A stretch of 41,892 nucleotides of DNA from the NCBI GenBank assembly GCA_018817795.1, contig JAHITJ010000073.1:1-41892 (forward strand), read 5' to 3'. This document shows positions 913 through 35,252 of the stretch, piece after piece. The notes under the pieces were generated by a model, which worked only from the letters and a program-made list of their open reading frames with translations, was not told where the DNA came from and ran no database searches. Origin of the DNA: Myxococcota bacterium. Its GTDB lineage: Bacteria > Myxococcota_A > Polyangia > HGW-17. The first letter of the stretch is position 1. Each line of letters starts with the position of its first letter. Both the position numbers and the translations under genes were made by a program.

Positions 913-3900
913 AAACCGCGATGCTCTGGCTGGGAATCCTGCTGTCCTCGTGCACATGGTTCTCCCGACCTATGCCACCGAAAGCGACCCCGGATCCGGC
1001 CACCGAAAAGCGTGCATCCATCCGCCAGGAACTTGCGGTGACCCGTGACGCCCGGACGCGCTGTCTGCTGCATCTGCACGGCGCCGTGCTCGATCTCATG
1101 GACGGCCGGGATCCCGCTGCCCTGGGCACCGCGATCGCGCGTGTCTGCCCCGACGGTTGGGACGCCGGTTTCAAGGCGTTGCAGTCCCTCCTGGCGGGGG
1201 ACCCGTGGAGCCTTCAGGAGCACGCCCTGCGTTTTCTCGAAACTACTTCCGTCCCGGGGAGGGACGAGGCCCTGCATCACCTGCGCCTTCTCGCCGCTGC
1301 CCTGCTCGTTGACGCCGATATTCCGGACACCTCCTTCACCAGGCGGCTCGCCATGGTCGCCATGCGGGATCCATACCTCCCTGCGTTCCTCTGGACGGGC
1401 GTGCCCCACCTGCTGCGGGAGGTGGCCCCTCCAGCACAGACACGCACCCTTGGAACCGGACTGACCTTCTCGCGCTCGGATCCCCTGCCGCTGCTCGGGC
1501 GACTGCACTTCTCCCGTCCAGCGCCCGTAACGGGCGGCTCCCACTGGAAGGACGGCGACCGTCTCAGCGCCGGCTCCGATCACCCCGCGCGGGTGACCCT
1601 GTCGCTTCCCCTCTCCTGTTCGACTCCCGGACCGATGCTCCTGGAGCTGCGGTCGTTGGGCCCCGCCTCTGTGCGCATCGACGGCGTGCTCGATGCCGAG
1701 AGCGGGCGCACCCCCGGCGTGGAAGGCGGGATCTGGCGGCTGCAGGTTCCACCCTTCTCCGGGTCCAGAACCCTGGTAATTTCCCTGGTAGCCACCCCGC
1801 GGGCCGGCGCTCCGCGGCTCCGGCTGGTGCCCTCATCCGCCTGCAGCTTCGGCGTCGATCCGTTCCCTTCCGTGAACGCCCGGCGCCCGCTTCCGGCCTG
1901 GCTTTCCCCCTTCGCAGGACTGGTCGTCGCCACCCTCGATGCCTCCGCAGGATCCTTCTCGGGTCCGCGGGCCGTCCTGGCCGGTATCACCTCCGGAAAA
2001 CCCCGGTTCATGCTCGCCCGCGCGCTGTTCACCCGCATGATCCTCGCCGACCCGTCGCTGCTTCCAGAGACCGCCAGGCGCCTGGCCCTGCTGCAGACGG
2101 CCGCCTTCCCCGGGGACGGATGGTCCCTGTTCGAGCAGGCCCGCATCGCCGAGGTCGACGGCCGTCCCGAGCAGGCCATGGAAAAACTGTCCCGCCTCGA
2201 CTCAGCGTGGGCCATCGTGGCCAGGGCCCGCCTGGCCCTGGAAACCAGCGGTGTCCCTACCGCCGGGGACACAGGCGGAGTAAAATTCGGCGCTCCCCTA
2301 GCCGGGCTGCTCGTCTCCTCCCGTCATCACCGAGTGTTCCTGACAGCCGCAGCAGCCGTCCGCCGCCGCGACCCCCGCCTGGCCCTGGCTTACCTGAAAC
2401 CGGCGCTGGCCCTTCGTCCCGACCTGCCGGACCTGCTGCAGTTCCATCTGCAGACGCAGCAGTTCCCTGAGGCCCTCGCCGAGGGACTTCGGCTCTTCAC
2501 TGCCGGATACCTGAACGAGACCCTCCTCTCCTCACTTGGTTCGGCCTGCCTGGGACTTCGCAACCTCGGGTGTGCCCTGCAATGGAATGATCAACGGCTC
2601 GCAGACGATCCCGTATCCGAGCCGGCCTTCCTGCGCCGGCTCGACGTGCTCACCGCGCTGGGCCACGACCCGGGCGAACTGTTCCGGGAGCTGGCCACCC
2701 ACGTCGCACGCTTTCCGTACCATCGGGACGCCCTGCTCCTGTACTGGGCCTCCCCGTTGTTTCGACAGACGACCCTTCCGGACCTGAAGACCCTGTTGGA
2801 CCTGAACTGGGGCAAGGACGCTCCAGCGGTCTTCCTGCTCAACCGGGAGGAGCATTTTCTTTCGTCCCGCGGAGGCGCCTTCGTCCGCGTCACGCGCTGG
2901 GTCCGCCTGAACACTCCGGTGGCCGTGGAGGAGCTCGGGGAGCTGGAACTCCCGTCCGATGCACTGATCCTCGACGTTCGGACCCTCAAGGCCGACGGAA
3001 CCGTGTACCCGCCCTCCTCGACACCGCAAAAATCCAGTTTCTCCCTGCGGAACCTCGAACCCGGGGACATCGTCATCTTTTCGTACCTTCGCGTGAACGC
3101 CCCCGTCCCGGGGCTCCCCGGACGGACCTGGGGACCCCGGTTCCAGTTCTCACACCGGGCCTTCCCCACCGTGCTTGCCGAATGGGTCGTGCATGCCCCC
3201 CTCGACCTTCCGCTGGTGCTCCGCCCCGAGGGCCGCCTGCCCGGGATCCAGCGCACCATCGACGCCGACGGCGTGCATCTGAAGTTGCAATCATGGACCG
3301 GCGAGCGCCTGCCCTCCGAACTGCGCATGGCCCACTTCGTGTCCCCGTCGATCCAGGTGCACGCGGGCTTTTCCGAGGAGGACCTGTACGCCCTGTTCGC
3401 CGAAGAGACGCCCTGGCCGGACTGGGACAGCCTGGAGCTCGCCCAGCTGGCCCGCCAGTTGTGTCCCCGTCCGAGCGCCGCCTGTGTTCCCGAAACGGCC
3501 CGATGGGTGCTGCGCCATATCCGGGACGATCGCCAGCTCACCAGGGCTGCGCACATCCTCCAGCGTCGGGCCGGCTCACGCATCCACCTTCTCTTCGCGC
3601 TGCTGCGGCACCAGGGATACCACCCGCGCATGCTTCTCGCCCGGGCCTCGCGCATCTCGGACGGACCGATCGCCTGGCCGGACCCGGCCGAATTCCCGAT
3701 CTGGTTGCTGGAGGTGCCCGGCTTCGGCTTCATCGACACTCGGTTTTCCCACCTGCCCCCGGGACGGATGGTCCCCGCCGTGGGCGGTTCCGAGGCCGTG
3801 GTGCTGTCCCCCAGGCCCACGACGGTCCGACTGGGTCCGGCCTCGCCCCAGTCACGCACCCTCGAGGCGCGCGCCAGGATTGCCCTGGATCGCAGCGCGC

Positions 3901-4493
3901 ACTTCGAGATCCGCGAGGTCTCCTCGGGCTTCCATGCCGTGCAGAAGCTCGACACGTTCGCGCGCCTTTCACCCGAGGCCCTGCGCGAGCAGATCCAGGT
4001 TGATTCGCTGCAGCGGTATTTCCCCGGCTCCCACCTGCTCTCCCTGGACTGGAAACGGCCACCCGCAGACCGGGAAGAACTGACCGCGACCTACACGTTC
4101 TCGGCACCCTCGGTCTGCGCGCCTGCCGACGGAAGGAACCTCGAGCTTCGGCGCTTCCCGTTCCCCTGGAATCTTCGTCGCCGGTTCGGCGTGTTCCTGC
4201 CCCGCACGACGGACTTCCTGCCCAACGCTTTGCCGGACACGCGCCTGGAATTGACCATCGAGCCTCCTGCGGGCATGCGGGTGGAAGCCTCTCCGGAACT
4301 TAACCTGGAGACCGAATTCGGACGCCTGCATCGCCAACTGGTGCCCGGACCCGGCCGGTCGGCGCGCCTGATCCTGGAGAAGTCCCTCCGCCCTGAGGTG
4401 ATTCCGGTCGCCCGCTGGAAGGCTTTCTCCGCCTTCGTCCAGCTCTTTGATGAGTATGAGACCCTGCCGGTGGTCCTGGTGCCGGTCCGATGA
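906..4493 (+). CDS. Large DUF3857 lipoprotein with helical-repeat N-half and degenerate transglutaminase-like domain
   Basis: A 1195-aa probable lipoprotein. A signal peptide ends in lipobox LSSC (Cys16 or so), placing it in the envelope. Residues about 200-640 form an Ala/Leu/Arg-rich helical region resembling TPRs. A DUF3857 domain follows at about 655-800, shown by RVTRWVRLNTPVAVEELGEL, LKADGTVYPP and NLEPGDIVIFSY. Residues about 860-950 look like a transglutaminase core: a helix with FALLRHQGY and an IDT strand remain, but the catalytic Cys position reads AGSRIH and the His position lies in FPIWLLEV, so the Cys-His pair seems lost. ATG 906 overlaps the cyclase stop and gives the signal peptide. 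Such proteins are common and largely uncharacterised. I infer a structural or binding role rather than catalysis. The end overlaps ATGA with the next reading frame. Confidence 0.85.
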   Translation: MLKTAMLWLGILLSSCTWFSRPMPPKATPDPATEKRASIRQELAVTRDARTRCLLHLHGAVLDLMDGRDPAALGTAIARVCPDGWDAGFKALQSLLAGDPWSLQEHALRFLETTSVPGRDEALHHLRLLAAALLVDADIPDTSFTRRLAMVAMRDPYLPAFLWTGVPHLLREVAPPAQTRTLGTGLTFSRSDPLPLLGRLHFSRPAPVTGGSHWKDGDRLSAGSDHPARVTLSLPLSCSTPGPMLLELRSLGPASVRIDGVLDAESGRTPGVEGGIWRLQVPPFSGSRTLVISLVATPRAGAPRLRLVPSSACSFGVDPFPSVNARRPLPAWLSPFAGLVVATLDASAGSFSGPRAVLAGITSGKPRFMLARALFTRMILADPSLLPETARRLALLQTAAFPGDGWSLFEQARIAEVDGRPEQAMEKLSRLDSAWAIVARARLALETSGVPTAGDTGGVKFGAPLAGLLVSSRHHRVFLTAAAAVRRRDPRLALAYLKPALALRPDLPDLLQFHLQTQQFPEALAEGLRLFTAGYLNETLLSSLGSACLGLRNLGCALQWNDQRLADDPVSEPAFLRRLDVLTALGHDPGELFRELATHVARFPYHRDALLLYWASPLFRQTTLPDLKTLLDLNWGKDAPAVFLLNREEHFLSSRGGAFVRVTRWVRLNTPVAVEELGELELPSDALILDVRTLKADGTVYPPSSTPQKSSFSLRNLEPGDIVIFSYLRVNAPVPGLPGRTWGPRFQFSHRAFPTVLAEWVVHAPLDLPLVLRPEGRLPGIQRTIDADGVHLKLQSWTGERLPSELRMAHFVSPSIQVHAGFSEEDLYALFAEETPWPDWDSLELAQLARQLCPRPSAACVPETARWVLRHIRDDRQLTRAAHILQRRAGSRIHLLFALLRHQGYHPRMLLARASRISDGPIAWPDPAEFPIWLLEVPGFGFIDTRFSHLPPGRMVPAVGGSEAVVLSPRPTTVRLGPASPQSRTLEARARIALDRSAHFEIREVSSGFHAVQKLDTFARLSPEALREQIQVDSLQRYFPGSHLLSLDWKRPPADREELTATYTFSAPSVCAPADGRNLELRRFPFPWNLRRRFGVFLPRTTDFLPNALPDTRLELTIEPPAGMRVEASPELNLETEFGRLHRQLVPGPGRSARLILEKSLRPEVIPVARWKAFSAFVQLFDEYETLPVVLVPVR

Positions 4494-4507
4494 GGGAGGT
4501 TTTCTTC

Positions 4508-5557
4508 ATGCAGTCTCTCAGGATGTTCCTGCTGTTGCTTGTGCTGTCGGCCGGGTGCCGTCGCTCCGAGCCTGTCGAGGATCTGGAGCCCTTCGTGACG
4601 GCGCGCCGGACGGGTTCGACCCGCCCCCTGACCACGGCTGATCCCGAAACCCCCCGCCAGTTGTCCGTCACCGACGCGGGACCAGGCGGTGAACCACTGG
4701 TCTTCATGCAGGATCGCGGCGGCTGGATGCTGCTCGATGAGCAGGCCCGACGTGTGTTCCAGGCCTTCGCTCCCGTCCCCGAGAACGACCCACAACCCGC
4801 CCGCGTGGCTGCAGCGTTTTTCGCTGCCGGGCACCGGACGGTCTACGTCCTGTACCAGCAGAGCCTGCACGCGATCCCCCTGGCCAGGCCTGCCCTGCGC
4901 ACCATCGCCACGTTCGGTGCCGGCGCCCTGTGCGCCTTTTCACCCCCCTTCGAGCAGCACGTGCTCCTGGAAACCGATCTCGGGGAGGATCCCGACCGGA
5001 AGGTCATCTGCGCCGTGCTGCGTGACGCCCCGGAGCCGGACACCCACCGAACCTGCTCGATCGCGGTCAGCCCTGACGACGGCACCGTGAAGACCGCCTG
5101 CACCCGGGACGACGGAGGCCAGACGGGACGCCCGGTGGAGCCCGCCACCTGCACGATTCAGCCGCCACTTTTGCACCCACCGGCCATCTCGGGATGGACC
5201 CTCGACGAGTCCGCCTGTGCGATCCGTCAGGACCGCCCGGAACGGACGGTCCCCCTGCTGCCCGATGCCGACGAGCCCTCGGAGTGTCGGATCCGGTTCG
5301 AGGGGATGACCGCCGACGGCCGGTTCGCGATCTGGTGCACGTCCGATCCGGAGCCGGAATACGCCGGTCAGAAGTGCCGGGTCGTCGATCTCCAGCGGGC
5401 CCTGTCCCTTGAACCTTCCTTCGACCTGCCCGTGGAGACCCACGTCCGCTGGGACGGCTCGGCCCGTGCCGCCCTCGCGGGTGACTTCCTCATTTTGATG
5501 CACCGCTCCCCGGTGCATTACGTCGAGCTCAACGCCTCCGCCCTCTTCGTCCGATAG
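4508..5557 (+). CDS. Lipoprotein of unknown function
   Basis: A 349-aa protein with a clear lipoprotein signal: Met-Gln-Ser-Leu-Arg, a run of Leu, then lipobox LSAGC. I prefer ATG 4508 over the in-frame ATG 4490, because GGGAGG (4494-4499) lies eight bases before it and the signal peptide then starts properly. The mature part has ten or more Cys residues and many Asp, Glu and Pro, with the rhythm of beta-propeller-like repeats (for example DGRFAIWCTSDPEPE), but I recognise no family. It is the last gene of the plus-strand run, 14 bases after the DUF3857 gene, and is followed by a hairpin that may end transcription. The two lipoproteins probably act together at the envelope. Confidence 0.8.
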   Translation: MQSLRMFLLLLVLSAGCRRSEPVEDLEPFVTARRTGSTRPLTTADPETPRQLSVTDAGPGGEPLVFMQDRGGWMLLDEQARRVFQAFAPVPENDPQPARVAAAFFAAGHRTVYVLYQQSLHAIPLARPALRTIATFGAGALCAFSPPFEQHVLLETDLGEDPDRKVICAVLRDAPEPDTHRTCSIAVSPDDGTVKTACTRDDGGQTGRPVEPATCTIQPPLLHPPAISGWTLDESACAIRQDRPERTVPLLPDADEPSECRIRFEGMTADGRFAIWCTSDPEPEYAGQKCRVVDLQRALSLEPSFDLPVETHVRWDGSARAALAGDFLILMHRSPVHYVELNASALFVR

Positions 5558-14511: not shown

Positions 14512-14616
14512 CCGGACAGCCTGTCGGACCCATATCATATTGGTTCTGGATTTTTCCGCGGGATCCGATTATTGTCTCCCCACGTTGCGCAGGCAGCGGA
14601 CGTACACGGAGGCATT

Positions 14617-15627
14617 TTGAAACACGGCATCCATTCACATACCGACATCGGCCGGATGCGGGAAGAGAATCAGGACTCGATGGGGACCCGGGTTCTCGCC
14701 GACGACTTCACCTTCCTGGTCGTGGCCGATGGCATGGGGGGATACGCAGGCGGCTCGGTCGCCAGCTCCCTGGTCACCTCGACAATGCTCTCGGAGCTTG
14801 CCAACGTGACCGTGGACGCCTTCCGCGAGAATCCGCAACTGTTCCTGCGCACTGCCATCCTGTCGGCCAACGCCGCCGTCAACAAGGAAGCCCGTGCAAA
14901 CCACGAACTGAGGGACATGGGATCCACCGTCGTGGCCGGCGCCGTGATCAACGATCATGCGTACATCGCCCACGTCGGCGACTCCCGCGCCTACCTGCTT
15001 CGCGACGGCTTCATCCGGCAGATCACCGAGGACCACACGGTCGTGCAGGATCTCGTGCGTGCAGGCTACGTCAACCCCGAGGACGCCGTCTACCATCCCA
15101 GTTCCGGCATCCTCACCCGCTGTCTCGGACAGATGGACATGCCCGATCCCACGTTCGCCGAGGTGATTCTGCTGCTGCCCGGCGACCGAATATTGTGCTG
15201 CTCTGATGGTCTCTCGGGCATGCTCGAGGACGATGAGATCGCCGAGGTCGTCTTCCACGAGCCCCCCGAGGACGCGGTCAACCTCCTCGTGAACCTCGGC
15301 AACGAGGCCGGCGGCTTCGACAACATCACCGTCGTCCTGTTCTCCTTCGGAGATCTCCCCGAGGCGGCCAGGAACTGGCCGATCCGCGTGGGGACGCCCC
15401 TGTACCGGGAGAGCCTCATGCCCCGGACGATCGACGAGCCCACGGTTCCGTTCAAGTTCGCCACGCGCGACAAGGCCAAGCTGCACGACACCATGGCCAT
15501 GGGAACGGCCTCCGGGGATCCCTCGCGTTCCGGCGAACGGATGGCCTGGCTGTGGCCCATTTTAATCGGCCTGGCCATCATCTCGATCGGGCTGTTTGTC
15601 TGGTACTTCATAGGGACCGGATCATGA
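14617..15627 (+). CDS. PP2C-family protein phosphatase with C-terminal membrane anchor
   Basis: A 336-aa protein phosphatase of the metal-dependent PP2C/Stp1 family. Motifs in order: DIGRMREENQDS (metal Asp/Glu), ADGMGGYAGG, DMGSTVVAG, HVGDSRAYLLRDG, ITEDHT, CSDGLSGML and DNITVVL. After the 240-residue domain comes a linker and one transmembrane helix (WLWPILIGLAIISIGLFVW), so the enzyme is tethered with its domain probably in the cytoplasm. TTG 14617 is the likely start: GGAGG lies at 14608-14612 and the family N-terminus begins here. No matching intact kinase is in the window; a kinase remnant occurs at 22326-23850. Its stop overlaps the next start as ATGA. Confidence 0.92.
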   Translation: MKHGIHSHTDIGRMREENQDSMGTRVLADDFTFLVVADGMGGYAGGSVASSLVTSTMLSELANVTVDAFRENPQLFLRTAILSANAAVNKEARANHELRDMGSTVVAGAVINDHAYIAHVGDSRAYLLRDGFIRQITEDHTVVQDLVRAGYVNPEDAVYHPSSGILTRCLGQMDMPDPTFAEVILLLPGDRILCCSDGLSGMLEDDEIAEVVFHEPPEDAVNLLVNLGNEAGGFDNITVVLFSFGDLPEAARNWPIRVGTPLYRESLMPRTIDEPTVPFKFATRDKAKLHDTMAMGTASGDPSRSGERMAWLWPILIGLAIISIGLFVWYFIGTGS

Positions 15628-21392: not shown

Positions 21393-21444
21393 GACTTTTG
21401 GCACAGCCCTTGCTCAAGGTTTGCTCGACGATTGGAGGTTCACC

Positions 21445-22245
21445 ATGAGACACGTCACTTCAACCCTTCTGGTTTCCCTTGTTCTTGCTTCCCTCTCCTT
21501 TATCGACTCCGCCAGCGCACAGGTGTGCGGCGGCGGCCTGATCGGCGTCGGTCCCATCGGCATCGGCGTGATGATTCCCTGTCCGCCACCGCCGCCGGTC
21601 TATGTGGTGCGGCCCCGGCGCGTGATCCGTCCGGTCTACGTGCAGCAGCCCGTCATCGTGCAGCAGCCCGTTCAGCGCACCCTGCCCCCGCCTCCGGCCG
21701 GGATCATGGGACCCCAGGAACAGTTCGTTCCCCGGCTGACGCTGGGCGTGATGATGGACAGTTCCTCCTATGACGACGGCGGGCTCGTCGGCGGCGGCGT
21801 TTACGCCCGGTACCTGCTCTCTTCGCAGTTCGCTGTGGAAGGCCACGTGGGCAGCCTGAGCTCGTGCACCAACTGCAACGAGGTCGCCTACCGCAACGAC
21901 GCCCGCGTCGGCGTGGCGGGTATGTACTTCCTGAATCCGGTGATGCCCGTGGGCATGAACCTGTATGTCAAGGGCGGCCTGACGGTCAACAACATCACCT
22001 TCTCCAACGACATCACCTGGGAATCCGAGTCGATCTCCCAGACCAACCTCGAGATCGGCGGCGGCGTGGAATGGCGGCTGACCCCGTGGCTCTCCCTCAA
22101 CGTCGAAGTGACCGGCATGGGCTCGGTCGGCGGCGAGGAGATCGGCACCGGCCCGATCAACGAGCAACTGTCCCCAGGTATCCCTTCCTCGGATATCAAC
22201 AACGGCGCGGTGAACTTCCGCCTCGGCGTCTCCACCCACTTCTAG
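21445..22245 (+). CDS. Outer-membrane beta-barrel protein (OmpA/OprF N-domain-like)
   Basis: A 266-aa secreted protein. A signal peptide ends SASA-Q. Residues about 28-95 are Gly- and Pro-rich with repeated VYV.RP and VQQPV units, a periplasmic or extended linker. Residues about 95-266 alternate hydrophobic and polar residues in barrel strands (RLTLGVMMDSSSYDDGG, GVYARYLLSSQFAVEGHVG, MNLYVKGGLTVNNITF, LEIGGGVEWRLTPWLSLNVE) and end in a terminal Phe (VSTHF), the usual BAM signal. An extracellular loop holds CTNC. GGAGG precedes ATG 21445 and a good promoter lies upstream. It faces the kinase remnant tail to tail. Function is probably structural or a small porin. Confidence 0.85.
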   Translation: MRHVTSTLLVSLVLASLSFIDSASAQVCGGGLIGVGPIGIGVMIPCPPPPPVYVVRPRRVIRPVYVQQPVIVQQPVQRTLPPPPAGIMGPQEQFVPRLTLGVMMDSSSYDDGGLVGGGVYARYLLSSQFAVEGHVGSLSSCTNCNEVAYRNDARVGVAGMYFLNPVMPVGMNLYVKGGLTVNNITFSNDITWESESISQTNLEIGGGVEWRLTPWLSLNVEVTGMGSVGGEEIGTGPINEQLSPGIPSSDINNGAVNFRLGVSTHF

Positions 22246-22325
22246 TCCCCTGCCGCTCCCGACCCCCACTCTCCCCTGAAGAGACCACGGAAAAGACGAA
22301 TCAGGCACGGCAAGCTCAGACGTCG

Positions 22326-23850
22326 TTAAAAACCGGAACCAGCACATCCACATGCCGGCCTCGTTCTTCACTCCCTGCTGCTGCATGAAGGAACGCCCCG
22401 ACTGCACCATCCAGATCGCCTCGAGGAGCGCTCCGAGGGCACGGCTCCATGCCGCCTTTCCCCGCAGCAGGGCCTTTGCGTGACCAGGCACCCTGGACAG
22501 TTGGTTCCGGCGGGCCGAGCCCTGCAGGGTCATGGCGCGGGCCAGCAGGCTCCGGCCTTGCAGGATCAGGCTCTCGCTGTGGATCGCCGGCACGTGCAGC
22601 AGAAACGAACTCTTCAGGGTCTTCCAGTCCTTTTCGAGGATGTCGTTGATTTGCTCATGCCGTTGGTCGTACAGGTTGGCATGCACCCGCGAGAGCAGGG
22701 CCCAGTAGTGTTGAAGATGATAACCACGAACGGTCCACCTTGAATTGTTCGCCTCGATGGTCATGGCGGCCAGGATCCGTCCGGGCTCGCCCATCCGCAG
22801 GGCCGCCAGGAGGAAACGCGTGGTGAAGTCCGCACCGCGGATGTGATCGGTCATGGACAGCCCGCGGGCGATCGAATGCAGGATGTCCACGTTGACGAGG
22901 TCCGTCCCCGGGATCTCGGTCTCGTCGCGCTCCCGGAAGCGTGTGCCCCGCAGTCGCACCAGGAAGCGTCGCCAGGCCAGGGAGGCCGGCCGGAAGACTT
23001 CTGCTGATTTGATGCCGAGGGCCAGGGCGGCCAGGCCCTGCCGAAGTGGACCGAACGAGAGGGAGACAAGCTCCACAAGATGACGGGACGGGGCCTCCAG
23101 GGAGCCAATGCGTTTCCAGAGCACGTCGTCGAGGCGCAGGTCGCCCCCCAGGTCGCCGGCAGCCTGAGATTGCAGGTGGCGCAGTAGTTCGCTCTTGCCG
23201 AGCCCCGAAGCACCATGGATCAGCCGCACCTGAAGCCCCAGATCGGCGACGGTGGCCTGGCCTTCGACAATCCAGGCCAGCTCCTGTTCACGACCCACAA
23301 ACAAGGGCATCCGCGTGCCCATCGAGATACAGGCTCGACCGGCCGGCCCAGCTTCGCGACGGAGGACATGCAGGATCTCCACTGCACCGGGCCGCTTGTC
23401 CGGGTCGTGCTCGAGCAGGGCCGAACACAACCGATCCAGGTCCGGAGGCACATCCGATCGGAGCGCCCTGACCTGGGGCGCCACACCGGCGAACTTCGCG
23501 ATGAGCAGCTGGGAGAATGTCCCGGTGAAAGGATGGGTCCCCGTCAGGGCCTCGAAGAGCATCACGCCCACGGCGTACCAGTCGGCGGCCGGACCCACCT
23601 GCAGGGAGGCCGCCTGCTCGGTCGCCATGAAATTGGCCGTCCCGACCGGATAGAAGCCCTCCTGGCTCAGTTCTCCGGGATCGCTCTGGGTGACGAGCCC
23701 GAAGTCGAGCAGGACAACGCGCCCTGTGGATTCGACAAGGACGTTTTCCGGCTTGATGTCACGGTGGACGCGATCCGACGCATGCAGGTAAGCCAGCGCC
23801 TCGACAAGCTAGGTCAGGGATCTTCGCAGCCGTTGCTCATGAAAGAGCGG
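22326..23850 (-). pseudogene. Decayed Ser/Thr protein kinase fused to an AAA-type ATPase
   Basis: A remnant of a PknK-like signalling ATPase. Reading from high to low coordinates: the end of a kinase N-half (LFHEQRLRRSLT), then TAG 23811-23809 where family members have Gln, then LVEALAYLH, HRDIKPENV (about 23766), DFGLVTQ (about 23706), the DWYAVGVMLFEALTG helix and RPGAVEIL. A GREQELAWI link and Walker A GASGLGKS follow. Most of the ATPase core between 'SLSFGPLRQGLAAL' and 'FLVRLRGTRFRERDE' seems deleted. The C-terminal helical part then runs to about 22340; a frameshift there would restore a plausible stop at 22326-22328. The N-lobe with the ATP-binding loop is missing. ATG 23628 gives only a kinase C-lobe, so I call it a pseudogene. 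Confidence 0.8.
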
Positions 23851-23904
23851 ACCACCCCTCCATCTTCTCCGCTCCCCCTTTGTCTTCTCCGAAGTCTCTT
23901 CTAC

Positions 23905-24591
23905 TCAGGCGTATCTCGTCGGATCGGGCACGCCTGCGGCTTCGAAGCCGCGCCGGCGCAGGATGCACGCGTCGCAGCGGCCGCAGGCGGCGCCGTCGGC
24001 GGCGACGGGATCATAGCAGGTGTGCGTCAGGCCGTAGTCCACGCCCAGGGACACGCCCAGCTCGATGGTCTCCTTCTTGGAGAGGTGCATAAGCGGCGCG
24101 TGCACGGTGATGTGCCGGCCCAGCTCGGTTCCGACGCGGGTCGCGGCGTTGGCCAGGGTCTCGAAGGCCCCGATGAACTCGGGACGGCAGTCAGGGTAGC
24201 CGGAGAAGTCCACCGACGAGACGCCGATGAACAGGTCGGCGGCTTCGAGATGCTCGGCCCAGGCCAGCGCATAGGACAGAAAGATCGTGTTGCGCGCAGG
24301 CACGTAGGTCGACGGGATTCCGGCGTGGGCCAGCGGGTCGCGATCCTTGGGCACGGCGGCGCCACCCACCAGCGAGGAGTCGCCGAAGAGATCCGGCGGC
24401 AGGGTCAGCACCCGGTGTTCGAGCACGCCGAAGGCCAAGGCGATCTTCCGTGCGGCGGCCAGCTCGAAGTCATGCTTCTGGCCGTAGGAAAATGAAAGCG
24501 CGTACAGTTCGAAGCCGCGGCTGCGGGCCACGGCCAGAACGGTGGAACTGTCCAGCCCGCCCGAGAGAAGTACAATAGCTTTTTCAGACAT
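23905..24591 (-). CDS. queC: 7-cyano-7-deazaguanine synthase
   Basis: A 228-aa ATP-dependent enzyme that converts 7-carboxy-7-deazaguanine and ammonia to preQ0 in queuosine synthesis. The PP-loop LLSGGLDSST opens the protein; SFSYGQKHDFE, YVPARNTIFLSYA, SGYPDCRPEF and the zinc ligands CYDP ... CGRCDAC follow in the standard order. ATG 24591 begins at the family N-terminus; ATG 24606 adds five residues and cannot be excluded, as neither has a strong ribosome site. The gene is six to 21 bases after the acyl-CoA hydrolase gene, so the two are probably cotranscribed. queD, queE and queF are not in the window. Confidence 0.96.
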   Translation of the reverse strand: MSEKAIVLLSGGLDSSTVLAVARSRGFELYALSFSYGQKHDFELAAARKIALAFGVLEHRVLTLPPDLFGDSSLVGGAAVPKDRDPLAHAGIPSTYVPARNTIFLSYALAWAEHLEAADLFIGVSSVDFSGYPDCRPEFIGAFETLANAATRVGTELGRHITVHAPLMHLSKKETIELGVSLGVDYGLTHTCYDPVAADGAACGRCDACILRRRGFEAAGVPDPTRYA

Positions 24592-24612
24592 CGGTGCTTT
24601 TCCCATTTTAAA

Positions 24613-26508
24613 TCAGTAATCAGGATTGAATTCATTGGCGTTGGCGCGGTCAAAGTCGAATTCGACGCTGTAAACGCCGTACTCGAGCTTGGTGCTCGTG
24701 TTGAAGCCCGACCGCGTGAAGACGCGCAGCATCTTCTTGTTCTCGGCGAGCACCTCGGCTGTGAAGCCCCGGATGCCCTTTCTCTGGGCGACCGTCACCA
24801 GGTTCTGAAGCAGGAAGCGACCGATGCCCTTGTTCTGCCAGTCGGGCAGGACCGTGAAGGCCACCTCGGCGCGGTTCGTGGGGCGGTCGAGGAACCAGCG
24901 GCCGATGGCCACGATCTCGTCGTCTGGCTCCTCCCCGATGGTACCCACGATGGCGAACTTTTCCTCGTAGTCTAGCACCACCAGCGGCTGCGCCTGGGAG
25001 TGCGACAGCGTCTTGACCAGTCCCATGAACCGATAGTAGACATCCTCCTGCCGCAGGCTGTAGAAGAACCGGCGCAGCTTCTCCTCGTCGATCATCCGGA
25101 TGGGCCGGAAGTTGACCTCGCGGCCGTCGGAGAGCTTGAACTGCCAGAAATAGTAGTCCGGATAGACCACGCCGTCCTTGGGCAGGATCTGATCCGGATA
25201 CGCATAGTTGAGCCTCTTGGCTTCCTCGAGGAGCATGGTGCGGAACTTCGGGTGGGCGATGTTGATCAGCGCCATGGCGCGCTCGCGGATGTTCTTGCCG
25301 TGCAGGTAGGCGATGCCGTATTCGGTCACCACGTAGTGCACGTCACCCCGGGTCGTCACGACCCCGGCCCCCGAGGACAGTAGCGGAACGATGCGGGAGA
25401 TCTCCCCGTTCTTGGCCGTCGAAGGCAGCGCGATGATCGGGCGGCCGTTTTTTGCCAGTGCCGCCCCGCGGATGAAGTCCGCCTGCCCGCCGAATCCCGA
25501 GTAGAAGCGGTGACCGATGGAGTCGGCGCACACCTGGCCGGTCAGATCGATCTCCAGCGCGGAGTTGATCGCGCACATGCTGTCGTTCTGGGAGATCACG
25601 CGGGGATCGGAGACATAATCGGACGGGTAGAACTCGAAGGTGGGATTGTTGTTGATGCTGTCATAGAGCCGCTTCGTGCCCAGGCAGAAGGAGGCGATGA
25701 TCTTCCCCGCGTGCAGGCTCTTGGCCGAGTTGTCGATCGCGCCGCTCTCCCACAGGTCGATGAGCCCGTCGGAGAACATCTCCGTGTGCACGCCCAGGTG
25801 TTTCTTGTCCTTGAGGTACTTGAGCACCGCGTTGGGAATCGCGCCGATGCCGGCCTGGATCGTGGATCCGCTGGGGATCAGGCGCGACACGTAGAAACCG
25901 ATGCGCTCGCTGATCTCGTCGGGAGGCTCGGAGACGAACTCCAGGATCGGCTCGTCGTATTCGATGAAGGCATGGAAATGCTCGACACTGACGAACCCCC
26001 CGCCGAGCGTCACCGGCATGTGCCGGTTCACCTGGGCGATCACGTACTTGGCGTGCTTGACGGCGGACAGCACCGTCTCCACGGCCACGCCCAGGGAGCA
26101 GTTTCCGAACGGGTCAGGCGGGGAGACCTGCACCAGGGCGACATCGATGGGGATGCGTCCGTTGCGGATCAGTTTGGGGATCTCCGACAGGAAGATGGGT
26201 GTGTAATCGGCCTCACCGGCCGAGACCGCGGAGCGGGCCGCCCGTCCGATGAAGAACGTGTTGAGCCGGAACATGTCCCGGAACTTGCCGGAGGTGACCG
26301 GCGACACGTTGAGGCTGATCAGGTGCAGGATCTCGGTGTCGGCGATGTTGGCCGGAAAATCACCCAGCCGCCGGGCCAGAAACTGGGGCTCGCTCACGCC
26401 TGAGCCGATGTAGATCCGGTTTCCGGGATTGATCTTCTGGTAGGCCTTCTCCACCGTGGTGAGGCGGCTTTCGTAGATTTCCTTCATTCGCGGCATGCGC
26501 CATTCCAT
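24613..26508 (-). CDS. Acetyl-CoA hydrolase/transferase family protein fused to a GNAT acetyltransferase domain
   Basis: A 631-aa two-domain protein. Residues about 15-440 are a CoA-transferase/acetyl-CoA hydrolase of the 4-hydroxybutyrate CoA-transferase type, with VSPPDPFGNCSLG, GIGAIPNAVL, the catalytic Glu in HTEMFSDG, GFGGQADFIRGA and VVTEYGIAYLHGKNIRERA. Residues about 465-631 are a GNAT domain (VNFRPIRMIDEEKLRRFFYS, AEVAFTVLPDWQNKGIGRFL with the acetyl-CoA loop QNKGIG). The same fusion is seen in other delta-type bacteria and GNAT domains of this kind can acetylate CoA enzymes, but the role here is inferred. GGAGG lies before ATG 26508. It follows gcvPB after 66 bases that contain two hairpins (26524-26538 and 26547-26562). 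Confidence 0.93.
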   Translation of the reverse strand: MEWRMPRMKEIYESRLTTVEKAYQKINPGNRIYIGSGVSEPQFLARRLGDFPANIADTEILHLISLNVSPVTSGKFRDMFRLNTFFIGRAARSAVSAGEADYTPIFLSEIPKLIRNGRIPIDVALVQVSPPDPFGNCSLGVAVETVLSAVKHAKYVIAQVNRHMPVTLGGGFVSVEHFHAFIEYDEPILEFVSEPPDEISERIGFYVSRLIPSGSTIQAGIGAIPNAVLKYLKDKKHLGVHTEMFSDGLIDLWESGAIDNSAKSLHAGKIIASFCLGTKRLYDSINNNPTFEFYPSDYVSDPRVISQNDSMCAINSALEIDLTGQVCADSIGHRFYSGFGGQADFIRGAALAKNGRPIIALPSTAKNGEISRIVPLLSSGAGVVTTRGDVHYVVTEYGIAYLHGKNIRERAMALINIAHPKFRTMLLEEAKRLNYAYPDQILPKDGVVYPDYYFWQFKLSDGREVNFRPIRMIDEEKLRRFFYSLRQEDVYYRFMGLVKTLSHSQAQPLVVLDYEEKFAIVGTIGEEPDDEIVAIGRWFLDRPTNRAEVAFTVLPDWQNKGIGRFLLQNLVTVAQRKGIRGFTAEVLAENKKMLRVFTRSGFNTSTKLEYGVYSVEFDFDRANANEFNPDY

Positions 26509-33538: not shown

Positions 33539-33617
33539 TCCGGCGCGAAAGAAAGCTGTCCGCTTTCGCCGCGGAAAGGGCAACTTCGTTGCCGCCATGA
33601 AAGGAAGGCCCGTACCC

Positions 33618-35252
33618 ATGAAAAGATTCCTGATTCCATTGATGTGGCTCCTCCTGCTGCCCGCCTGCGACGACACGGCGGGGAAGTCCGTGTGTCCCGA
33701 CGGCATCGCCACCGGCTCCGAGAGCTGCGACGGCACCGACCTGCGCGGTGCCACATGCCAGACACTCGGCTATTACGGCGGCGCGCTGGCCTGCTCGGCT
33801 GAGTGCGGCTGGGATCTGGCGGGCTGCGAGCCCTCGGGCCGCTGCGGAGATTCCATCGTCCAGTCGGCCTTCGAGCAGTGCGACGGCACCGATGTGGGTC
33901 TTGCAACGTGCGAAAATCTCGGACTGGGGACCGGTGAGATCCTGTGTACGTCCAACTGCCGCATTGACGACTCCGGCTGCTCCAATCCTGCCGTCTGCGG
34001 TGACGGCCTGCTCCAGGGATCCGAACTGTGCGACGGCCTGGATTTCGGCGGCCAGACATGCAACGGCCTCGGCTTCGCCGGCGGGCAGCTCGCCTGCAAC
34101 ACCTCCTGCGAGTTCGACACCTCCGCATGCCAGGCTGCAGCCGTGTGCGGCGACGGTATTGTCGGCGACGGCGAGGTGTGCGACGGCGCCGACCTTAACG
34201 GGCAGACCTGCACCGGCCTCGGATACTACGGCGGGGACCTCGCCTGCACGGGCGCCTGCACACTGGATCAGGCCCCCTGCGCGGCCGCCGGACGCTGCGG
34301 CGACGGCACGATCCAGGGCACCTTCGGAGAGGTCTGCGACGGCGCCAACCTGGCAGGGCAGACCTGCGAGACCCGCGGCTTCGTCGGCGGCACCCTCGCC
34401 TGCAGCACCTCCTGCTCCTTCAATGAGAGCGGCTGCGGAGACAGCCAGGCCGACATCGTGTGCGGCCGCTGGAACGCCGACCGCGTCGACATGAACGAGG
34501 GCATCTGGTCGGGCAGCGTGAACACCTGCAGCGCAGGCGACATCGGGGCCCCCGGCCGCGCCAACGCGCTCAAGTTGGTCAACCTGTACCGCTTCCTGGT
34601 GGACCTGCCCCCGGTGACGACGGATCCCACCCTCGATGCCAAGGCCGAGAAGTGCGCGCTGATGATGACCGCCAACAACACGATCAACCACTTCCCCCCC
34701 ACCAGCTGGACCTGCTACTCCGCCGACGGCGCCAACGCCGCGGGCTCCTCCAACCTGGCGACCACGCCTGGCGTCCAGGCCGTGGATCTCTACATGGTCG
34801 ACCCGGGCAACCCCACGACCATGGGCCACCGTCGCTGGATCCTCTCCAACTCCTTCGGACCCACGGGGCTGGGCTCGACGAACTCCTACTCCTGCATGTG
34901 GGCCTTCGGCAGCGGCAACGCCGGCAAGAGCTGGACGGCCTACCCGGGGCCGGGCATCTTCCCGGTCCAGGCGGTGAATCCGTCGTGGTCGTCGATCGAC
35001 CAGACCGGCTGGACGCTGCAAAGCGACTCGATCAACCTCGGCTCGGCCGTGGTCACCATCACCATGGACGGCAGCACCGCCCGCCCGGTGACGATCACCC
35101 ACCTGGGAGCGAACTACGGCTCCTCCTATGCGATCTCCATGATCCCGCAGGGCTGGTCCACGCAAGCCGGCCACACCTATCACGTCTCGGTCACGGGCGT
35201 GACCCCGGCGATCTCCTACGACGTCGAGGTCGTGGACTGCTCGGCGTTCTGA
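33618..35252 (+). CDS. Lipoprotein with five six-cysteine repeats and a C-terminal CAP domain
   Basis: A 544-aa surface-type lipoprotein: signal MKRFLIPLMWLLLLPAC. Residues about 26-273 are five tandem repeats of about 45-50 residues, each with the pattern C(G/P)D-x-ExCDG-xx-TC-LG-GG-L-C-C-C (six cysteines), a design common in Myxococcota and Bradymonadales surface proteins. After a linker comes a CAP/SCP-type domain (about 310-430) with KLVNLYRFLVDLPPV, KCALMM and GHRRWILSN, which has the family's His/Glu region. The last 110 residues are a beta-rich domain (WTLQSDSINLG, VVTITMDGSTARPVTI). ATG 33618 gives the signal peptide; ATG 33597 lies upstream without one. Confidence 0.88.
   Translation: MKRFLIPLMWLLLLPACDDTAGKSVCPDGIATGSESCDGTDLRGATCQTLGYYGGALACSAECGWDLAGCEPSGRCGDSIVQSAFEQCDGTDVGLATCENLGLGTGEILCTSNCRIDDSGCSNPAVCGDGLLQGSELCDGLDFGGQTCNGLGFAGGQLACNTSCEFDTSACQAAAVCGDGIVGDGEVCDGADLNGQTCTGLGYYGGDLACTGACTLDQAPCAAAGRCGDGTIQGTFGEVCDGANLAGQTCETRGFVGGTLACSTSCSFNESGCGDSQADIVCGRWNADRVDMNEGIWSGSVNTCSAGDIGAPGRANALKLVNLYRFLVDLPPVTTDPTLDAKAEKCALMMTANNTINHFPPTSWTCYSADGANAAGSSNLATTPGVQAVDLYMVDPGNPTTMGHRRWILSNSFGPTGLGSTNSYSCMWAFGSGNAGKSWTAYPGPGIFPVQAVNPSWSSIDQTGWTLQSDSINLGSAVVTITMDGSTARPVTITHLGANYGSSYAISMIPQGWSTQAGHTYHVSVTGVTPAISYDVEVVDCSAF

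Follow-up and report, generated by a model that had tools for sequence, protein, structure and literature searches.

Remnant of a large Ser/Thr kinase-ATPase gene next to queC, very probably a recently inactivated pseudogene, in a metagenome-assembled Myxococcota-type genome

The locus beside queC and its intact orthologue

The window analysed is a stretch of 41,892 nucleotides from a metagenome-assembled genome, designated here as G000, that consists of 263 contigs and is 88% complete. Two relatives from the same genus, G001 and G002, were compared with it. The remnant of a kinase-ATPase gene is located on the minus strand at positions 22316–23849, beside queC. Its upstream flank is the intact queC gene (23905–24606, minus strand), and its downstream flank is an intact, convergent gene for an outer-membrane beta-barrel protein (21442–22245, plus strand). 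The gap between queC and the start of the remnant is 55 bp, and the queC stop codon at 23907–23905 is in the frame of the remnant, so that the close, in-frame position reported in the first-pass annotation is confirmed. After a TAG at 23811–23809, the sequence ...LVEALAYLHASDRVHRDIKPENVLVESTGRVVLLDFGL... follows in the minus-strand frame (23811 to 22336), and the motifs HRDIKPENV and DFG, as well as the frame and coordinates given earlier for them, were found there. In Pfam, this ORF matched Pkinase with 33.7 bits at profile positions 164–259 of 263 only, and AAA_16 with 24.9 bits, which is below the cutoff of 32.6.

In the sister species, an intact orthologue is present on contig C265 of G002 (locus L053, AC No. 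PHAZ01000220.1, HGW-Deltaproteobacteria-22). The gene order there is the same, with queC (4719–5420; dS 0.142 to the window gene), a gene for 1242 aa in the same orientation, and the convergent barrel gene at the start of the locus. The orthologue is coded on the minus strand of L053 at 941–4669, is 3729 bp long, and in Pfam its protein matches the kinase domain in full with 169.7 bits and AAA_16 with 73 bits. Its C-terminal part is termed TPR-like according to its helical look and family context, as no Pfam repeat model passed. It is the only intact syntenic orthologue in the comparison (n=1), because the G001 genome, which is 70% complete, does not contain the locus.

When the remnant was aligned to the orthologue with cheap long gaps, five collinear pieces were obtained, all on the minus strand. 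Piece A (23184–23849) is 87% identical to L053 4311–3646 and carries the C-lobe of the kinase with HRDIKPENV, DFG, and a damaged APE, followed by the linker and the start of the ATPase with the Walker A motif GASGLGKSEL. Piece B (22989–23183) is the C-terminal part of the ATPase module and 90% identical to L053 2970–2776. Two helical-repeat segments follow, piece C (22745–22988; ASLAWRRFLVRLRGTRFRERDETEIPG...) with 96% identity to L053 2181–1938 and piece D (22400–22744; SRWTVRGYHLQHYWALL...) with 86% identity to L053 1514–1170. Piece E (22316–22399; GRSFMQQQGVKNEAGM...) is the C-terminus, assigned by the alignment to the orthologue, with the old TGA at 22318–22316 now out of frame. The likeness is not due to chance, since the five pieces are collinear, 86–96% identical on the DNA level, and flanked on both sides by orthologous genes.

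In G000, 39 kinase matches were found, and three of them are paralogues of the kinase-ATPase kind (C31, C139, and C84). The C31 paralogue is an open frame of 1270 codons, while those on C139 and C84 are cut by contig ends.

Several other elements of the window were recorded. A purine-rich stretch after queC at 23845–23900 (GAAGAGACTTCGGAGAAGAC...) has imperfect copies at C130 and C179 (81–84%), and in G002 an 88-bp copy flanks the kinase gene on both sides (85%); perhaps it is a small dispersed intergenic repeat. Deletion by means of these repeats was considered and rejected, as none of the deletion junctions is matched by two copies of the repeat. Upstream of queC, at 24613–26508 on the minus strand, an acetyl-CoA hydrolase/transferase and a GNAT acetyltransferase domain are fused in one frame of 631 aa according to Pfam. 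In the gene of a CAP-domain protein (33597–35252), the part at about 33700–34440 on the plus strand has matches of 64–89% DNA identity at dozens of sites in each of the two same-genus genomes and, judged by these matches, appears to be a widely repeated coding module. The gene at 4490–5557 on the plus strand has no Pfam match and is 82% identical to its counterpart in G001 with dS of 0.51, while most of its neighbours are 88–95% identical.

A PP2C phosphatase gene is located on the plus strand at 14572–15627; it matches PP2C_2 with 64 bits, and its Stp1/IreP-like match falls just short of the NCBIfam cutoff. The earlier statement that this gene is kept was correct, as it is present in both same-genus genomes, but the implied link to the lost kinase is not supported. 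A distance of 8 kb with several genes separates it from the remnant, it is on the opposite strand, and it is conserved like its neighbours, so it was rejected as a partner of the kinase.

Lesions of the kinase gene

Compared with the orthologue, the window copy has lost 2189 of 3729 bp (59%). The loss consists of five large deletions, and in addition there is a CAG to TAG change and a 1-bp deletion. The deletion at junction 23849/23850 removed 352 bp, including the start region and the kinase N-lobe, so that the 3' flank of queC is joined to about residue 120 of the orthologue; the absence of the N-lobe had already been recognised. The GTG at the annotated start of the orthologue is still present in the window copy, but out of frame. 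From the queC stop to the TAG, the frame contains no start codon, and ATG is first met at 23628, past the HRD catalytic loop and DFG. The TAG at 23811–23809 stands in place of the orthologue's CAG for Gln133, and Gln is found in 12 of the 13 other relatives with that region, in agreement with the Gln codon predicted for this place. In the activation segment, APE is changed to ATE (P196T, 23620–23622), although the proline is present in 14 of 14 relatives.

Four internal deletions are all in frame. At 23183/23184, just after Walker A, 675 bp with the ATPase core including Walker B are lost, and an imperfect repeat (GAACTnnTGCGC) flanks this junction. The others comprise 594 bp at 22988/22989, 423 bp at 22744/22745, and 144 bp at 22399/22400. 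Loss of much of the ATPase core was thus rightly noticed in the first-pass annotation, but it is one of four internal losses and not a single one. Alignment to the orthologue placed the 1-bp deletion at 22350/22351, where it shifts the frame near the C-terminus; the frameshift was anticipated, but the real end of the remnant is 22316. A single homologue, L053, aligns to the remnant in pieces, with the gap exactly between the segments of Walker A and RGTRFRERDE and with Gln at the TAG, which is the pattern expected if one large gene had decayed. The predicted translation of the remnant contains peptides spanning the deletion junctions, such as GKSELLRHLQSQ.

Neither domain is complete by Pfam. 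The kinase has no N-lobe with its Gly-rich loop and VAIK Lys, and its APE is ATE; of the AAA_16/STAND module, Walker A is there and Walker B is inside the 675-bp deletion. Since the deletions took away the start region, the kinase N-lobe, the core of the ATPase, and parts of the repeat region, and since a nonsense codon and a frameshift are found in what is left, the remnant is predicted to make no working kinase or ATPase. Two features of a pseudogene are present: lesions that abolish the product (deleted start region, TAG, four internal deletions, frameshift) and, in the close relative G002, an intact orthologue with the same genes on either side. As the lesions are seven and separate, one sequencing error is irrelevant to this.

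The frameshift also lets the remnant read on in the antisense of the barrel gene. For this reason, the ORF of 722 aa at 21460–23628 on the minus strand is spurious; its last approximately 290 codons run antisense through the barrel gene. An automatic gene call would give a false protein here.

Time of the breakage and origin of the allele

The kept pieces have dS of 0.32 to G002 (95% bootstrap 0.25–0.39), dN of 0.056, and omega of 0.17 (0.12–0.24). In intact orthologue pairs of a paralogous kinase, omega is 0.17 (G000–G002) and 0.14 (G002–G001), and because the values are alike, most of the divergence predates the decay. Nonsynonymous differences are 57–59 on both branches together, whereas about 65 would be expected on the branch of the window copy alone under neutral drift since the split (0.06 × 1090 sites, a rough estimate). 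The count is below this neutral expectation, which places the breakage after the split from G002. The nonsynonymous differences are not clearly above those of living genes, and neutral drift after death is not visible in them; nonetheless, the invariant APE proline was lost. The substitution pattern supports a probably recent breakage of the kinase gene, as had been proposed from the reading frame.

The synonymous divergence stands out. For 22 neighbouring genes, dS between G000 and G002 is 0.085–0.177, while that of the kinase pieces reaches the level found between G000 and the third species G001 (0.22–0.57 for the neighbours). Along the gene, dS is 0.42 (C-lobe and linker), 0.21, 0.11, and 0.39, with the lower values in the middle. 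High dS together with low omega points to a more divergent allele and not to faster decay. As the synonymous divergence of the kinase pieces is about 2.5 times that of the neighbours, we infer that the allele of G000 or that of G002 may have been exchanged with a more distant lineage by homologous recombination. Old tandem copies, differently kept in the two genomes, would explain the excess divergence as well. In intact members of the family, synonymous divergence is also uneven, and for this reason the lower dS at mid-gene need not mean a second exchange.

The best explanation of the locus, with a probability of roughly 93%, is a pseudogene that was inactivated recently and derives from the gene for a large signalling protein of the Ser/Thr kinase-AAA_16 (STAND-like) ATPase-TPR type, which belongs to a small paralogous family in a deltaproteobacterial/Myxococcota-type environmental genome; this call relies on the assembled sequence of one metagenome-assembled contig. 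The kinase gene could have been dispensable, since paralogues remain and their redundancy may have made the loss tolerable. Deletion-biased decay would then have taken the gene away piece by piece, and the decayed allele, or that of G002, would have come from a more distant lineage through homologous recombination.

An alternative is stepwise shedding of domains, in which a shortened product was selected in frame through several deletions and the loss of the start, the TAG, and the frameshift came only late. All four internal deletions (675, 594, 423, and 144 bp) are divisible by three, for which the chance is (1/3)^4 = 1/81 (p = 0.012), and omega stays low. This pattern hints that some deletions at least occurred while the frame still mattered, but the events are only four. 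Two junctions are located on short imperfect repeats in coding sequence, the repeat mentioned above at the 675-bp deletion and nine bases of microhomology with one mismatch at the 594-bp deletion, and such repeats may mechanically favour in-frame events. The nine-base match is reached by about 0.1% of random pairs; the remaining junctions have no notable repeat. Moreover, the intermediate would be without Walker B, and no shortened form of the gene was found among 39 genomes or 80 loci; relatives with full-length frames keep the deleted regions. Domain shedding as such is therefore unlikely, and the fuller scenario of four successive in-frame deletions that shrank the product under selection before its death, the allele having come by exchange from a more distant lineage, is slightly less probable still.

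An assembly artefact, that is, a contig that is a chimera of strains or paralogues while the real gene is intact, would be compatible with a metagenome-assembled genome in 263 contigs and with the odd divergence profile along the kinase gene. It is very improbable, as the junction repeats are imperfect and about 12 bp or less, which is too short for jumps in an assembly graph, both flanks are orthologous, and the pieces are 86–96% identical to the orthologue but only about 67–81% to any paralogue. The deleted stretches are on no other contig; a search of the whole G000 genome recovered only the 67–81% paralogues, and no second intact copy of the broken gene was found there. A living short gene from ATG 23628, such as one for a pseudokinase fragment, has 431 open codons in the kinase frame before 22336 and a codon-position composition resembling that of the orthologue, but it is hardly credible, as this ATG comes only after the catalytic loop and DFG, neither Walker B nor the invariant proline of APE is left, the frameshift takes the C-terminus into the antisense of the barrel gene, and no homologue of the same length starting there was found in any relative examined.

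Comparison with known kinases and pseudogenes

According to its domain order, the parent gene is presumably PknK-like, as PknK of Mycobacterium tuberculosis. Like the Ser/Thr kinase-AAA_16-TPR kinases of Myxococcota, Planctomycetota, and others, it codes for a kinase that is followed by an AAA_16 ATPase and by a C-terminal part that is long and helical. Of these, the remnant has only the C-lobe of the kinase and the edge of the ATPase at Walker A. Nothing specific was found in the literature on PknK-like kinases. The anti-phage kinases Mad6 and PD-T4-6 were also considered and rejected, as the orthologue matches them over the kinase domain only and not in full length. The nearest counterpart is the G002 orthologue, which likewise lies between queC and the convergent barrel gene and has 86–96% DNA identity to all kept pieces, but its frame of 1242 aa is intact, whereas the window copy is reduced by 59% and broken at the start, in the middle, and at the end.

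The gene that decayed is of a known kind, and the remnant is an ordinary pseudogene whose deletions form a mildly curious pattern. It records the loss of one member of a kinase family expanded in these bacteria, and if the in-frame pattern recurs elsewhere, it would have a bearing on the way in which large modular genes die. The remnant resembles the bacterial pseudogenes shaped by deletional bias (Kuo and Ochman 2010, PMC2916853) in its loss by deletion, its recent age, and its intact syntenic flanks. Among 378 pseudogenes of Salmonella, 346 carry just one inactivating mutation, and the removal of young ones is faster than expected under neutrality (PMC2916853). In contrast to these, the remnant has at least seven lesions yet little neutral substitution; it lies in the tail of the Salmonella lesion-count distribution and would fit rapid removal.
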